DNA of 56,458 nucleotides from Synergistes jonesii (lineage in GTDB: Bacteria; Synergistota; Synergistia; Synergistales; Synergistaceae), in the NCBI RefSeq assembly GCF_000712295.1, contig NZ_JMKI01000012.1, positions 1-56,458 of the forward strand. Direction: 5' to 3'. Position numbers and translations under genes: made by a program. Below are positions 17,734 to 23,494 of the stretch, one piece after another. The notes beneath the pieces were generated by a model. It ran no database searches, was not told the origin of the DNA, and saw nothing but the letters and a program-made list of their open reading frames with translations. The first letter of the stretch is position 1. Every line of letters begins with the position of its first letter.

Positions 17734-18165
17734 ATGTCAGGCAAAATAATCGCCGTATGCAGCGCGCCGAAGAAGGGCATGATAAAGCACGACCAGCGCG
17801 AAGGCGTGCTGATAGAGGAGAGCGGGCTCGAAGGCGACGCCCACGCCGGCTTCATGCACAGGCAGGTCAGCCTCATCGCGATGGAAGACGTCCGCACGAT
17901 GATGGAGAAATTGCCGAACCTCGTCCCGGGAAGCTTCGCCGAAAATCTGACCACCGAAGGCTTCGACCTCGGCAGGCTGAAGATCGGCGACAGGCTGAAG
18001 GTCGGAGAGACGCTGCTGGAAGTCTCCCAGATAGGCAAGGAGTGTCATTCGCACTGCGAAGTATTCAAGCAGAGCGGCGAATGCATAATGCCGAAAAAGG
18101 GCATCTTTACCAGAGTGATCAAGGGAGGAAAGGTAAAAGCGGGCGATACTATAGACTTCGCGTAA
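17734..18165 (+). CDS. MOSC-domain protein
   Basis: A 143-residue stand-alone MOSC domain (SGLEGDAHAGFMHRQVSLIA, GSFAENLTTEGFDL, GKECHSHCEVF). MOSC domains occur in molybdenum cofactor sulfurases and often bind sulfur or metals. The conserved cysteine region CHSHC is present. It sits 13 nt after iscU, so it may use IscS-derived sulfur. The TOBE protein downstream also points to molybdenum or tungsten chemistry. The specific role is unknown. Confidence 0.85.
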   Translation: MSGKIIAVCSAPKKGMIKHDQREGVLIEESGLEGDAHAGFMHRQVSLIAMEDVRTMMEKLPNLVPGSFAENLTTEGFDLGRLKIGDRLKVGETLLEVSQIGKECHSHCEVFKQSGECIMPKKGIFTRVIKGGKVKAGDTIDFA

Positions 18166-18204
18166 ATATAGAGCCGCCGCGCTCTTTTTATGGGAGAGAC
18201 ATAT

Positions 18205-20235
18205 ATGGAGAACGAAGAAAAACGCGAACACGAATGTTACGAAAACTGCGGCTGCGCAGCCTGCGCGCAGGAGCAAGGCGCGCATCACCACGTCCACGGG
18301 CACGAAAGCGGCTGCGGCTGCGCGGCCTGCCACGCGGTCGACGATATTTTCAGCGAAAACGAAGAGGACGAAAAAAAAGCTCAGTCCGAATTCAGACGCG
18401 AGGTGACCTTCCTCGCAGTCGCCGGCGCGGTATTCGTGCCGACGCTGATCTGCGAAGCGCTCTTCCCTGATGTAGCGCCGGAATGGCTCTTCAACGCGGT
18501 ATTCGCGGTCCTTTACCTGCTGACCGGCGTGCCGGTGTTGAAAATAGCTTTGAAAGCGCTGCTGCGCGGCGACGTATTCAACGAATTCACGCTGATGGGA
18601 GGCGCGACTCTTGCGGCGCTCGCGATAGGCGAAATGTCCGAATCCGTCGGCGTCATGCTCTTCTACCGCCTCGGCGAAGCCTTCCAGGAACGCGCGTCGT
18701 CAAACTCGCGCCGCTCTATCAGGGCCCTGCTCGCGCAGAAGCCTATGACCGCGCGGGTCGTCACGGAGGACGGAACGGTTGAAAAAGACCCGAAGGAAAT
18801 AGTGAAGGGCGACGTCGTTCGCGTGATGCCGGGCGAGATCGTCCCGATAGACGGCCGCGTCGTCAGCGGCACGTCGCAGATAGACATGTCCGCGATCACC
18901 GGCGAATCGATGCCGGTCGCCGTCCGGCGCGGCAGCGAAGTCCACGGCGGCACACTGTCGCTCGACGGGCTGCTGACTGTAGAGGCGGCGGGGCCATTTG
19001 AAGATTCCACGATAGCGCGCATGCTTGAAATGGTGCAGAACGCGGTCGCGCGCAAGTCCCCGACCGAGCGCTTCATCACGAGATTCTCGAAGTGGTACAC
19101 GCCGGCGGTATTCTTCATGGCCTCGGCGGTAATGCTTCTGCCTCCTCTCTTAGGCTTCGGAGCGTGGCGCGAATGGATATACAGAGGGCTCGTCCTGCTC
19201 GTCATATCCTGCCCCTGCGCCCTCGTGATATCGATACCTCTCGGTTACTTTGGAGGGATCGGCGCGGCGTCGAAAAACGGCATACTCGTGAAGGGCGCGA
19301 ACGTCTTCGACGCCGTCGGACGCGTCGACACCGCGGTATTCGACAAGACCGGCACATTGACCTACGGAAAATTCAGGCTCGTTAAAATCGTGCCGGCCGC
19401 GGGTATCGAAGAGCGCACGGTGCTTTCGGCCGCGGCGTTGGCGGAAAACGGCTCGACGCATCCGGTCGCCAAATCGATAACGGCCGCCGCGGCGGACGTT
19501 TCCGCGCCGGAAGGGGCGTCGATAACCCAGCTTCCCGGCAAGGGCATGCTATTCAAGAACGAGGGCGACACGATAGTAGCCGGCAACGCGGCGCTGCTTT
19601 CCGAATTCGGCGTCGCTGCGCCCGCAGTCGCGGAGCACGGCACTGTCGTACACGTCATGAAAAACGGAAAATACCTCGGCGCCCTGGTAGTCGCCGACGA
19701 ACTGCGCACCGACGCCGCCAAGACGATCTCCGAACTGCGCATGCAGGGCATAAAGGGCGTCTACATGCTGACCGGCGACAGGGAGGAGACGGCGGCCGAC
19801 GTCGCGAAAGAGCTTCGGCTCGACGGCTACCGCGCGGAGCTTCTGCCTGGAGACAAGGTCGAAGCTCTCAAAGAGCTCTGCGGCGGCGACACGAAGAGGA
19901 CCGTTTACGTCGGCGACGGCATAAACGACGGCCCGGTCCTCGTGACCTCCGAGACCGGCATAGCGATGGGGGGCTTCGGCTCGCAGGTCGCAGTCGAAGT
20001 GGCGGACGCGGTCATACTCGACGATTCGCCGTCGAAAGTTGTGGGACTGCTGCGCATCGCGAAAAAAACGCGCGCGATAGTCTGGGAGAACGTATTCTTG
20101 GCGCTCGGAGTCAAGCTCGTATTCCTGATATTCGGCGTGGCCGGGCTCGCAGGCCTCTGGGAGGCCGTTTTCGCCGACGTAGGCGTCGCGCTGATGGCGA
20201 TATTGAACTCGGCGCGCGCGACGCGTATAAAATAG
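18205..20235 (+). CDS. Heavy-metal P1B-type ATPase (Zn/Cd/Co exporter type)
   Basis: A 676-residue membrane ion pump. The cytosolic N-terminus is a Cys/His-rich tail (CYENCGCAACAQ, HHHVHGHESGCGCAACHAV) instead of the usual ferredoxin-like metal domain. Key sites are CPC at 336-338 in TM6, phosphorylation Asp380 in DKTGTLTYG, ITGESMPV, and GDGINDGPVL. The CPC motif and the TM8 region fit the ZntA/CadA group. Start ATG at 18205 follows GGGAGAG; the upstream ATG at 18190 has no site. The exact metal is inferred. Confidence 0.92.
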   Translation: MENEEKREHECYENCGCAACAQEQGAHHHVHGHESGCGCAACHAVDDIFSENEEDEKKAQSEFRREVTFLAVAGAVFVPTLICEALFPDVAPEWLFNAVFAVLYLLTGVPVLKIALKALLRGDVFNEFTLMGGATLAALAIGEMSESVGVMLFYRLGEAFQERASSNSRRSIRALLAQKPMTARVVTEDGTVEKDPKEIVKGDVVRVMPGEIVPIDGRVVSGTSQIDMSAITGESMPVAVRRGSEVHGGTLSLDGLLTVEAAGPFEDSTIARMLEMVQNAVARKSPTERFITRFSKWYTPAVFFMASAVMLLPPLLGFGAWREWIYRGLVLLVISCPCALVISIPLGYFGGIGAASKNGILVKGANVFDAVGRVDTAVFDKTGTLTYGKFRLVKIVPAAGIEERTVLSAAALAENGSTHPVAKSITAAAADVSAPEGASITQLPGKGMLFKNEGDTIVAGNAALLSEFGVAAPAVAEHGTVVHVMKNGKYLGALVVADELRTDAAKTISELRMQGIKGVYMLTGDREETAADVAKELRLDGYRAELLPGDKVEALKELCGGDTKRTVYVGDGINDGPVLVTSETGIAMGGFGSQVAVEVADAVILDDSPSKVVGLLRIAKKTRAIVWENVFLALGVKLVFLIFGVAGLAGLWEAVFADVGVALMAILNSARATRIK

Positions 20236-20310
20236 GCTGTAATTTATACGAAAGAATAAAAAATCTCAGCAATAACGTGCAGGGAACAAAAAAATGAGGA
20301 GGAATCTGAA

Positions 20311-20739
20311 ATGACCTTAAGCGCACGCAACCAGCTGAAGGCTGTGGTAGCGGGGGTAAAGGCCGGAGCGGTGAACAACGAGGTGTCCCTCCGCCTTGAA
20401 AAGGGAACGGTGATCACGTCTATCATCACCGCGGCGAGCTGCGAAAGCCTCGGGCTCAAAGAGGGTGCCATGGCCTACGCCGTGATCAAAGCGACGAACG
20501 TGATGATCGGCGAAGATGGTGGCAAGCTGAAACTCTCGGCGCGCAACCAGCTTCGCGGTACGGTGAAGGCCGTAGTCGAAGGCGCGGTCAACTGCGAAGT
20601 CGAAGTGACGCTCGACGGCGGCGAGGAGATGACGTCGATAATCACGCTGGCCAGCGCGAAGAAACTCGCGCTCGCCCCCGGCAGAAAAGTCGTAGCGATA
20701 GTCAAGGCCTCGGACGTAATGGTAGGCGTCGAAGCGTAA
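20311..20739 (+). CDS. Tandem TOBE-domain molybdopterin/molybdate-binding protein (Mop type)
   Basis: 142 residues made of two repeated TOBE domains of about 70 residues, each starting LSARNQL (residues 3 and 75) and ending with a VIKATNVMIG / IVKASDVMVG strand. Such di-Mop proteins bind molybdate or tungstate as oligomers and buffer the metal in the cytosol. AGGAGG lies before ATG. A hairpin terminator follows. Confidence 0.9.
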   Translation: MTLSARNQLKAVVAGVKAGAVNNEVSLRLEKGTVITSIITAASCESLGLKEGAMAYAVIKATNVMIGEDGGKLKLSARNQLRGTVKAVVEGAVNCEVEVTLDGGEEMTSIITLASAKKLALAPGRKVVAIVKASDVMVGVEA

Positions 20740-20760
20740 AGCGAAAGGAAATTCTCTAAA

Positions 20761-20791
20761 CATAGAGGCGCGGCTCTGCAGCGCCTCTATG
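20761..20791 (+). terminator. Hairpin after the Mop gene
   Basis: A perfect 11-bp stem (20761-20771 / 20781-20791; CATAGAGGCGC) with a 9-nt loop. Only a weak T-rich stretch follows, so termination may be partial. Confidence 0.6.
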
Positions 20792-20835
20792 CTGATATTC
20801 CCTGGGGATTCTCTCTCCAGTTTCTCTGACTATTA

Positions 20836-20864
20836 TTGACATCTGCGGCGTTTGCCTCTAATAT
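20836..20864 (+). promoter_or_regulatory. Promoter for the mrp-selenoprotein-amidohydrolase genes
   Basis: TTGACA at 20836-20841, 17-bp spacer, TAATAT at 20859-20864. The Mrp start is 65 bp downstream. Confidence 0.7.
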
Positions 20865-20928
20865 TCAATGCGTGAGGAAACGGGCGGCGCGGAGCGCGGC
20901 CTTTAAAACTGTTTAAGGAGATGCGGAT

Positions 20929-21759
20929 ATGGCAGAGGAAAATTGTTCCTACGACTGCAGCAGCTGCGAGCAGAAGTGCGACCATGAAGGAGCGCCGGAT
21001 TTCAGCGTTCCCGCCAATCCATTGAGCAACGTAGGCAAGGTCGTCGGCGTCGTAAGCGGCAAGGGCGGCGTCGGAAAATCGCTCGTCACGGCGCTGCTCG
21101 CCTGCGCTATGCAGAGGAAGGGGCGTCAGTGCGGGATACTCGACGCGGACGTGACGGGGCCGTCTATTCCCAGGATGTTCGGCATAGATTCGCTCGTGAC
21201 GTCGAACGCTTCCGGGATAATCCCGGCCCATTCGAAGCGCGGGATAGACGTGATGTCGGTGAACCTGCTCGTCGAGGATAAATCGACGCCGGTCATCTGG
21301 CGCGGCCCGGCCATCGCGTCGGTCGTCAAGCAGTTCTGGAGCGACGTGATATGGAGCTACGAGGATTTCCTCTTCGTGGACATGCCGCCGGGAACGGGGG
21401 ACGTGCCGCTGACGGTTTTCCAGTCGCTGCCGGTCGACGGAATCGTCATCGTCACCTCGCCGCAGGAGCTCGTCTCGATGATCGTCGAAAAGGCGATGCG
21501 CATGGCTAAGGAGATGAACGTCCCCATCCTCGGGATAATCGAGAACATGAGCTATGTGCAGTGCCCCGAGTGCGGCAAGAAGATAAAGCTCTTCGGCGAA
21601 GGACATGCGGAAGAGACCGCGAAGAGGTACGGGATAGATTTTCTCGGAGAGATTCCTCTCTCGCCGGAGCTTGCGCGCCTCTGCGACGCCGGCAACATCG
21701 AATACTTCTCCGACCCCTTCACGGATAAGGCCGCGGCGAAGCTTGAATCTCTGAAATAG
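20929..21759 (+). CDS. Mrp/NBP35-family P-loop ATPase, Fe-S cluster carrier
   Basis: 276 residues. An N-terminal cysteine cluster (CSYDCSSCEQKC, residues 6-17) precedes the deviant Walker A VSGKGGVGKS at 42-51. Further motifs are DADVTGPSIPRMFG, DMPPGTGDVPLT and a CPECGKK pair near residue 212. Such proteins bind and transfer 4Fe-4S clusters in the cytosol. The ribosome-binding site AAGGAG precedes ATG. The following gene begins 92 nt later, after a hairpin. Confidence 0.93.
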   Translation: MAEENCSYDCSSCEQKCDHEGAPDFSVPANPLSNVGKVVGVVSGKGGVGKSLVTALLACAMQRKGRQCGILDADVTGPSIPRMFGIDSLVTSNASGIIPAHSKRGIDVMSVNLLVEDKSTPVIWRGPAIASVVKQFWSDVIWSYEDFLFVDMPPGTGDVPLTVFQSLPVDGIVIVTSPQELVSMIVEKAMRMAKEMNVPILGIIENMSYVQCPECGKKIKLFGEGHAEETAKRYGIDFLGEIPLSPELARLCDAGNIEYFSDPFTDKAAAKLESLK

Positions 21760-21781
21760 ATAACGGCAAAAAGCGTTTTGC

Positions 21782-21815
21782 GGGAGACCTCATGATAATG
21801 AAGTCTCCTTTTTTA
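21782..21815 (+). terminator. Terminator after mrp
   Basis: GGGAGACCTCATGATAATGA then AGTCTCC with a T6 tail. The stem has one mismatch. The Spx/ArsC-like gene behind it would need read-through or its own promoter. Confidence 0.6.
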
Positions 21816-21851
21816 ATATGAAGCCCGCAGAAAAGGAAAGGAAGATGTACA

Positions 21852-22205
21852 ATGCTGATGCTCTGCTACCCGAAGTGAACGACGTGCAAAAAAGCCGCGG
21901 AGTGGCTTGCGCTGCACAAGATAGACGCCGCAGTGCGCGACATAAAGGCGGAAAATCCGACGGCGGAGGAGCTGAAGGAGTGGCGGGAGCTCTCCGGCCT
22001 GCCGCTGAAAAAATTTTTCAACGCGAGCGGCATGCTCTACCGCGAACTCGGGCTCGGCGCCAAGCTGCCGACGATGGGCGACGAGGAGCAGATAAAGCTG
22101 CTCGCGTCTGACGGGATGCTCGTGAAGCGCCCCCTGCTGATAGCGGACGGCGCCGTCCTTGTCGGGTTTAAGGAAAAGGAGTGGGAAGCGGCGCTGCTGA
22201 AATGA
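21852..22205 (+). CDS. Spx/ArsC-family thioredoxin-fold protein with an in-frame UGA at the catalytic cysteine (probable selenoprotein)
   Basis: 117 residues if TGA at 21876-21878 is read as selenocysteine (residue 9). The protein begins MLMLCYPK, then U, then TTCKKAAEWLALHKI. Relatives read YPKCSTCKKA, so UGA replaces the catalytic cysteine and gives a UxxC motif. The 108 codons after UGA are uninterrupted and carry the family blocks (LSGLPLKKFFNASGMLYREL, LLASDGMLVKRPLLIADGAV, VGFKEKEWEAAL). A SECIS-like hairpin follows at 21884-21917. The start ATG has AGGAAG about 8 nt upstream. The stop overlaps the next start (ATGA), which implies translation through the UGA. A nonsense mutation is the alternative. 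The substrate is unknown; thiol redox or arsenate-reductase-like chemistry is likely. Confidence 0.85.
21884..21917 (+). promoter_or_regulatory. Candidate bacterial SECIS element
   Basis: A hairpin immediately downstream of the in-frame UGA. Outer stem GTGCA (21884-21888) pairs with TGCAC (21913-21917), then an internal loop. Inner stem AAGCC (21892-21896) pairs with GGCTT (21904-21908). The apical loop is GCGGAGT, starting with G. The loop begins 18 nt after UGA, within the range known for SelB-binding elements. Confidence 0.65.
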
Positions 22206-23494
22206 CACCGTTGAATATCCCGAGTGGATTGAAGGACGAAATGCGCCTGTGGCGGCGTGATTTCCATAAATATCCCGAACGCGGCTGGACGGAGTTCAGG
22301 ACGACCGCGAAAATCGCGGAGCAGCTCGCGGAATGCGGCTGGCCCCTGCGCTTTTCAAAGGACTTTCTGCGCGCCGAGGACATAATGGGGCGCGACATCG
22401 ACGTAGGAAAAGAAAAATCGCGCGCTATGGCCCAGGGCGCCGACGAAAAGCTGATCGCCGAAATGGGCGATTACACCGGCCTCACCGCGGAGCTCGACGC
22501 GGGGCGCGAAGGACCGGTTTTAGCGCTGCGCTTCGACATCGACTGCGTCGAGTGCCGGGAGGCGAAGGATGAACGGCACTTCCCGGCGAGGGAGGGCTTT
22601 TCGTCGGTGAACGACGGGCTCATGCACTCCTGCGGACACGACGGGCACGCCGCGGTCGGACTCGCGCTCGCGCGTCTGCTTATGGACGAAAGAAAGAGGC
22701 TCTGCGGAAAAGTAGTCCTCATATTCCAGCCCGCCGAAGAAGGAGTGCGCGGCGGCTACGCGATGGCGCGCGGCGGCGTTGCCGACGGTGCGGATTATTT
22801 CCTGACGATGCATCTGGGGCTCGGCAGGCCCACGGGCTCCGTCGTGTGCGGCATGGGAGGCTTCCTCTGCTCGACGAAGTTCGACGCGGGATTCGCCGGC
22901 GTAGGCGCGCACGCCGGCGCCGAGCCGGAGCGCGGCAGAAACGCGCTGCTCGCCGCGGCCTCCGCTGCGCTGAACCTTCACGCGATAGCGCCGCACTCCG
23001 GAGGGGCTACGCGCGTCAACGTCGGGGTGCTGCGCGCCGGCGAAGGACGCAACGTCGTGCCGCCCGCCGCTCTGATGAAGATAGAGACCCGCGGCGAGGA
23101 CGCGCAAGTCGCGAAATACGTTTATGGCAGGTCTATGGAAGTGCTTAAAGGAGCCGCCGCGATGTACGGCGTATCTCTTACAGTCACAAAACAGGGGGAG
23201 ACCATCAGCGCCGAAAGCGACGCGGAACTTGCCGCGGCGATCGCCGAAGCCGCGCGCGCCTCCGAAGGCGTGACACGGATAGACGAATACGGCAAAATGG
23301 CGGGCAGCGACGACGCCTGCTGGCTGATGGAGCGCGTCCAGCGCGGCGGCGGAAAAGCCGCCTACATAGGCATAGGAGCGGACTCTCCCGCCGGCCACCA
23401 CAACGAACGCTTCGACATAGACGAAGCCGCTATGGACATCGCCCTCTCCGTGCTGGCGAACAGCGCGCTGCTGATCTGCGGGAGAAAATCGTAG
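22202..23494 (+). CDS. M20-family amidohydrolase, AbgA-like (p-aminobenzoyl-glutamate hydrolase A type)
   Basis: A 430-residue dimetal amidohydrolase. Metal-site motifs include RFDIDCVECREA, HSCGHDGHAAVGLALARLL and IFQPAEEGVRGGYAMA. The dimerisation domain has GVGAHAGAEPERGRNALLAA. It resembles AbgA, which cleaves folate breakdown products, and indole-acetyl-amino acid hydrolases. Start ATG at 22202 overlaps the upstream stop (ATGA), so expression is coupled to the UGA-containing gene. No AbgB/AbgT partner is in the window, so the substrate is open. Confidence 0.88.
   Translation: MTPLNIPSGLKDEMRLWRRDFHKYPERGWTEFRTTAKIAEQLAECGWPLRFSKDFLRAEDIMGRDIDVGKEKSRAMAQGADEKLIAEMGDYTGLTAELDAGREGPVLALRFDIDCVECREAKDERHFPAREGFSSVNDGLMHSCGHDGHAAVGLALARLLMDERKRLCGKVVLIFQPAEEGVRGGYAMARGGVADGADYFLTMHLGLGRPTGSVVCGMGGFLCSTKFDAGFAGVGAHAGAEPERGRNALLAAASAALNLHAIAPHSGGATRVNVGVLRAGEGRNVVPPAALMKIETRGEDAQVAKYVYGRSMEVLKGAAAMYGVSLTVTKQGETISAESDAELAAAIAEAARASEGVTRIDEYGKMAGSDDACWLMERVQRGGGKAAYIGIGADSPAGHHNERFDIDEAAMDIALSVLANSALLICGRKS

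Follow-up and report, generated by a model that had tools for sequence, protein, structure and literature searches.

A probable selenoprotein of the ArsC-related TIGR01617 branch in Synergistes jonesii

Results

An in-frame UGA in an ArsC/Spx-like gene

An ArsC/Spx-like gene of Synergistes jonesii very probably encodes a selenoprotein in which an in-frame UGA at 21876-21878 is decoded as selenocysteine (Sec), as judged from comparative sequence analysis. The same TGA is found at 27 loci, and a SECIS-like hairpin follows it in all 24 distinct Sec sequences when ~2.4 would be expected from shuffles, which together argue for a real selenoprotein beyond chance. A sequence-only reading of the window (the whole 56,458-nt stretch analysed, contig NZ_JMKI01000012.1) had proposed a selenoprotein whose catalytic cysteine is replaced by Sec; the Sec machinery, the codons of the orthologues and the hairpin all fit that proposal and support it.

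The frame opens at ATG 21852, runs into the TGA, continues through 108 sense codons and ends at a second TGA that overlaps ATG 22202 of an M20 peptidase gene (ATGA), as had been described (Table 1). With the first TGA read as Sec, the product would have 117 residues and begin MLMLCYPKUTTCKKAAEWL, the TGA standing in place of the first cysteine of the CxxC motif (UTTC). A scan of the window for further TGA-interrupted genes, judged by eye, gave no convincing candidate.

Table 1. Coordinates in the window of the predicted selenoprotein gene, its hairpin and its neighbours
Feature	Position	Strand	Remarks
Mrp/NUBPL-type P-loop ATPase, upstream, frequent neighbour	20929..21759	+	PF10609, 303 bits
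Putative Sec-containing ArsC/Spx-like protein gene	21852..22205	+	117 residues, U9-T-T-C12, stop TGA 22203-22205
Predicted UGA selenocysteine codon at first Cys of CxxC	21876..21878	+	alignment of 153 loci
Outer stem, 5' arm GTGCA	21884..21888	+	present in source genome, not conserved
Putative SECIS upper stem, 5' arm AAGCCGC	21892..21898	+	folding, hairpin search, covariation
Putative SECIS apical loop GGA	21899..21901	+	begins after 20-nt spacing from UGA
Putative SECIS upper stem, 3' arm GTGGCTT	21902..21908	+	folding, hairpin search, covariation
Outer stem, 3' arm TGCAC	21913..21917	+	present in source genome, not conserved
M20-family peptidase/amidohydrolase, downstream	22202..23494	+	PF01546, 98 bits; overlap by ATGA

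Sec and Cys forms among relatives

Across the aligned loci the codon at this position is TGC (84), TGT (42) or TGA (27) and nothing else. The orthologues thus carry Cys or UGA at this residue, with no decay of the frame after the UGA, and the earlier placement of the UGA at the catalytic first cysteine of an Spx/ArsC-like protein holds. Since some loci are second copies within one genome, the 27 TGA loci correspond to 25 genomes: 19 Synergistota and six Clostridia, the latter being a Tissierellia MAG (L062), Acetoanaerobium noterae (L132) and four genomes (G368, G330, G527 and G421) that came from a survey of 391 Clostridia genomes. Sec and Cys forms are paired within a single genus in three cases (G000/G001, G016/G030 and G029/G014), with Sec machinery in all of these genomes. 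A tree inferred with the Sec column removed (116 columns, with many open forks) requires at least nine Sec/Cys changes, and well supported branches force four of these. On this alignment and tree, the Sec and Cys forms appear to interconvert repeatedly, even inside one genus.

The second cysteine of the motif, Cys12, is retained in 20 of the 21 aligned Sec forms. The exception is a Clostridia orthologue (L168, 998-1351; G421) that has UTSV instead of UTTC, its second cysteine being replaced. Among the Cys members, L101 (G002) and L121 (G136) pair on a starred branch of the tree and come from genomes of different families; they are possibly a paralogous or transferred clade. No relative turned up among viral contigs.

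A SECIS-like hairpin follows the UGA

The inner hairpin has a 7-bp stem that starts 13 nt past the UGA and a loop at +21, and the segment 21876-21925 folds with an MFE of -16.4 kcal/mol (z = -2.35). The bSECIS model, as quoted in a recent review (PMC13188914), specifies a loop of 3-9 nt with a G among its first two bases, a stem of 4-16 bp, a distance of 16-37 nt from the UGA and an MFE <= -7.5. Compared on stem, loop, spacing and energy (7 bp, GGA, 20 nt and the MFE above), the hairpin falls within the published model on all four, and its loop also matches the G(G/U) pattern of that model. The hairpin had been described as a two-part structure: the inner stem is conserved and extends from 5 bp to 7 bp with a GGA loop, while the outer GTGCA/TGCAC stem is not found in that form in relatives and was dropped as a conserved element.

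Relatives were searched mechanically for a hairpin lying 16-37 nt from the UGA, with a stem of >=5 bp and a G at loop base 1 or 2. Such a hairpin is present in 18/18 Sec forms of Synergistota (2.0 expected from shuffles) versus 5/16 Cys forms (p = 1.5e-5, Fisher test with kinship ignored), and outside Synergistota in 6/6 Sec forms versus 37/109 Cys forms. Raw MFE over the 42 nt that follow the codon failed to distinguish Sec from Cys forms (p = 0.38), but the bSECIS criteria did distinguish them. The best hairpin lies at another position in L165 and L167. That of L167 (1019-1090; G527, Clostridia), ATTGGCT[GGA]AGCCAAT, has its loop at +30, unlike the others, and may be a separately evolved SECIS within the same gene family.

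Over the 21 aligned Sec forms the stem covariation score is 0.244 compared with 0.169 +/- 0.015 in shuffles, a measure inflated by kinship, and it lies above every one of the 500 shuffles and every slid version. The loop-closing pair has changed on both sides and occurs as A-U, G-C, C-G, U-A and G-U; it is paired in 12 of the 21, the rest having a wider loop. Codon choice differs as well: GCC serves as the Ala codon in 17/17 Sec forms versus 5/16 Cys forms (p = 2e-5, Fisher test, kinship ignored), and among Synergistota a G stands at +22, the second loop base, in 17/17 Sec forms versus 7/16 Cys forms (p = 3e-4, same caveat). Cys forms mostly have Lys at the codon containing +22 (90/125), where Sec forms have Glu, Ala, Gly, Asp or Val. 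The GCC Ala codon and the G at +22 fit selection for the predicted hairpin. The Rfam SECIS_1 model (RF00031) had no match in the source genome, and since it had none in the control genomes either, that search is uninformative; an Rfam scan of 21780-22000 returned a chance match only.

Selenocysteine machinery and other readings of the UGA

The earlier reading had named selA, selB, selC and selD as the genes to look for, and all four components are in the genome. SelA (C2:42438-43811, 564.8 bits) lies directly upstream of SelB (C2:43868-44968, 333.8 bits), tRNA-Sec is at C37:128783-128875 (69.9 bits), and SelD, also on C37, has an in-frame TGA of its own (KTSGU). GrdA likewise has an in-frame TGA, in its ECFVU motif. 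Among Synergistota, tRNA-Sec or SelA/SelB were found in 19/19 genomes with the TGA form versus 14/22 without it (p = 0.003, Fisher test with kinship ignored); the 22 include six (G158-G161, G172 and G178) counted as Cys by their stop-free frame with the codon itself unread, and two incomplete genomes, G015 and G020, were scored Sec-positive through their SelA and SelB matches. SelA is present in all five searchable Clostridia genomes with the TGA form.

Reading of the UGA as Cys, Trp or Gly, by reassignment or suppression, would also keep the frame open, and Cys would restore the usual residue. We regard it as extremely improbable: UGA acts as an ordinary stop elsewhere in the window, where it terminates 12 of the 40 long ORFs, in every case tested the TGA form belongs to a genome with Sec machinery, the SECIS-like hairpin follows it, and the same genome holds the TGA-containing SelD and GrdA.

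A second alternative makes the UGA a regulatory stop that places downstream expression under selenium-dependent control, the true product being either a protein started at GTG 21933, which opens a 90-codon ORF, or the M20 enzyme, whose gene overlaps by ATGA in the window. There is next to no likelihood of this, since the residues that precede and flank the UGA are conserved between phyla, Cys forms read uninterrupted from the same start, and the neighbours differ among Sec forms. Several Synergistaceae (L001, L036, L088, L091 and L092) retain both the upstream Mrp gene and the downstream M20 gene, but other Sec forms (L083, L087, L094, L097 and L099) are followed by an Lrp-type regulator and an aminotransferase, or by a TOBE protein. 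The proposed coupling to the M20 amidohydrolase is thus borne out as adjacency in a subset of Synergistaceae and not among several Sec orthologues; because the neighbours of the Sec forms vary, a functional tie is unsupported family-wide, and on gene order the coupling appears to be a local arrangement only.

That the TGA arose through a sequencing error, or through a mutation that inactivated a Cys codon, is hardly credible: the closest same-genus relative, Synergistes sp. RGIG7157 (G001, L001), does have TGC, but recurrence of the TGA at 27 loci in 25 genomes refutes an artefact or pseudogene in practice, the hairpin tracks the TGA, and coding constraint persists beyond it without decay, third positions being the most variable (for example 25, 22 and 46 differences per 100 codons at positions 1, 2 and 3).

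Two further features of the window were observed. Upstream of the predicted selenoprotein gene, MOSC, P-type ATPase, TOBE (two domains) and Mrp/NUBPL genes stand in a row (17734-21759), in an order identical to that at L001, which suggests a metal, molybdate or Fe-S theme. On the minus strand, 1458-1739 holds an ORF that by eye resembles an IS200/IS605-type transposase.

Family assignment

The predicted selenoprotein scores above the cut-offs of Pfam ArsC (66 bits, cut-off 24) and of TIGR01617 arsC_related, the Spx/MgsR subfamily (90.0 bits, cut-off 75.05). It stays below those of NF041106, the ArsC family (seleno)protein model (21 vs 85 bits), of the ArsC arsenate reductase model TIGR00014 (34.8 vs 106 bits) and of the Spx regulator models NF002459, NF009885 and NF009210 (46, 33 and 30 vs 123, 152 and 159 bits). 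The original label "Spx/ArsC-like" is therefore apt at the level of TIGR01617 and Pfam ArsC and does not extend to strict Spx or arsenate reductase; these profile scores place the protein in the broad TIGR01617 subfamily, and not among true Spx proteins or ArsC arsenate reductases. The closest solved structure by sequence, PDB 3gkx ("putative ArsC family related protein"), matches residues 2-113 with 137 bits and gives the fold at sequence level. Like the Cys proteins of TIGR01617 (Spx, MgsR, "arsenate reductase family protein"), it is of the same subfamily and has Cys where the window protein would have Sec9.

In E. coli ArsC, Arg60, Arg94 and Arg107 bind arsenate. In an approximate alignment to this enzyme (22% identity), Sec9 aligns with the catalytic Cys and R93 with Arg94 of the RP motif, while the position of Arg60 is Asn and the region of Arg107 is a gap. 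As two of the three arsenate-binding arginines are without counterpart, arsenate reduction by the window protein appears unlikely.

Several selenoproteins of the ArsC family are on record. The "arsenate reductase-like" selenoprotein of NF041106 (PMC13188914) shares with the window protein the ArsC superfamily (COG1393) and a predicted Sec at the first Cys of a UxxC motif, but it represents a different branch, the window protein lying far below the model's cut-off. The ArsC-like selenoproteins of Desulfotalea/Desulfuromonas (PMC1794560) and the "arsenate reductase" of the Sargasso Sea set (PMC1088965) also have Sec at the catalytic Cys. The marine set differs in its UxxS motif (PMC13188914), and the window protein stays well below the TIGR00014 cut-off; the 2006 Desulfotalea/Desulfuromonas sequences may or may not fall in its branch. 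The Spx transcription regulator resembles the window protein in its N-terminal CxxC and ArsC-type similarity (36 bits to PDB Spx chains) and is unlike it in length (131-132 in the models vs 117 residues) and in the Spx model scores. It is improbable that the window protein's subfamily acts as a selenium-based redox switch of transcription, binding RNA polymerase in the manner of Spx.

Discussion

We propose that the hairpin starting 13 nt past the UGA is bound by SelB with its Sec-tRNA, so that the codon is read as Sec. The product would be a thioredoxin-like member of the ArsC family, 117 residues long and equipped with a U9-x-x-C12 pair. Sec9 would most likely be the redox nucleophile, forming a selenenylsulfide with Cys12 as the resolving residue, which cellular thiols may then reset. 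Since L168 is without the second cysteine, its Sec would have to act with no resolving Cys, and a selenenylsulfide with Cys12 would not be universal. Such a protein could serve the anaerobic cell as a thiol/disulfide-type reductase or redox sensor, and we consider a thiol/disulfide-type redox role rather likely. The parts of this scheme that are supported at sequence level are the UGA at the redox Cys, the selection on the hairpin and the Sec machinery.

ArsC-like selenoproteins have been listed since 2005-2006 (PMC1088965, PMC1794560), and the abundance of selenoproteins in Synergistota is established; in these respects the protein is of an already known sort, and the claim of a "new" selenoprotein has to be narrowed to the TIGR01617 branch, for which none was found in the literature examined. 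A 2026 review (PMC13188914) gives only NF041106 and TIGR00014 for the ArsC superfamily, with Spx, MgsR and TIGR01617 unmentioned, and both of these published models miss the window protein's branch. A selenoprotein subfamily in the TIGR01617 branch that current (seleno)protein models do not cover is well supported. The deep-Sep report gives 18 known and no new selenoproteins for Cloacibacillus porcorum (PMC12013277); should G016 be of that species, its gene was either assigned to a known family there or overlooked.

The sister genomes with Sec and Cys forms (G000/G001, G016/G030 and G029/G014) would offer a natural system for what Sec buys over Cys, and they suit asking how a SECIS arises or decays. 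A recurrent selenoprotein that standard annotation easily loses would be added to Synergistota and to amino-acid-fermenting Clostridia. The eight selenoproteins published for Clostridium sticklandii (PMC3091704) include no ArsC/Spx-like entry, yet Acetoanaerobium noterae carries the Sec form. In the latter it lies at 4001-4354 of L132, from a replicon of 2.6 Mb that is recorded as a plasmid.
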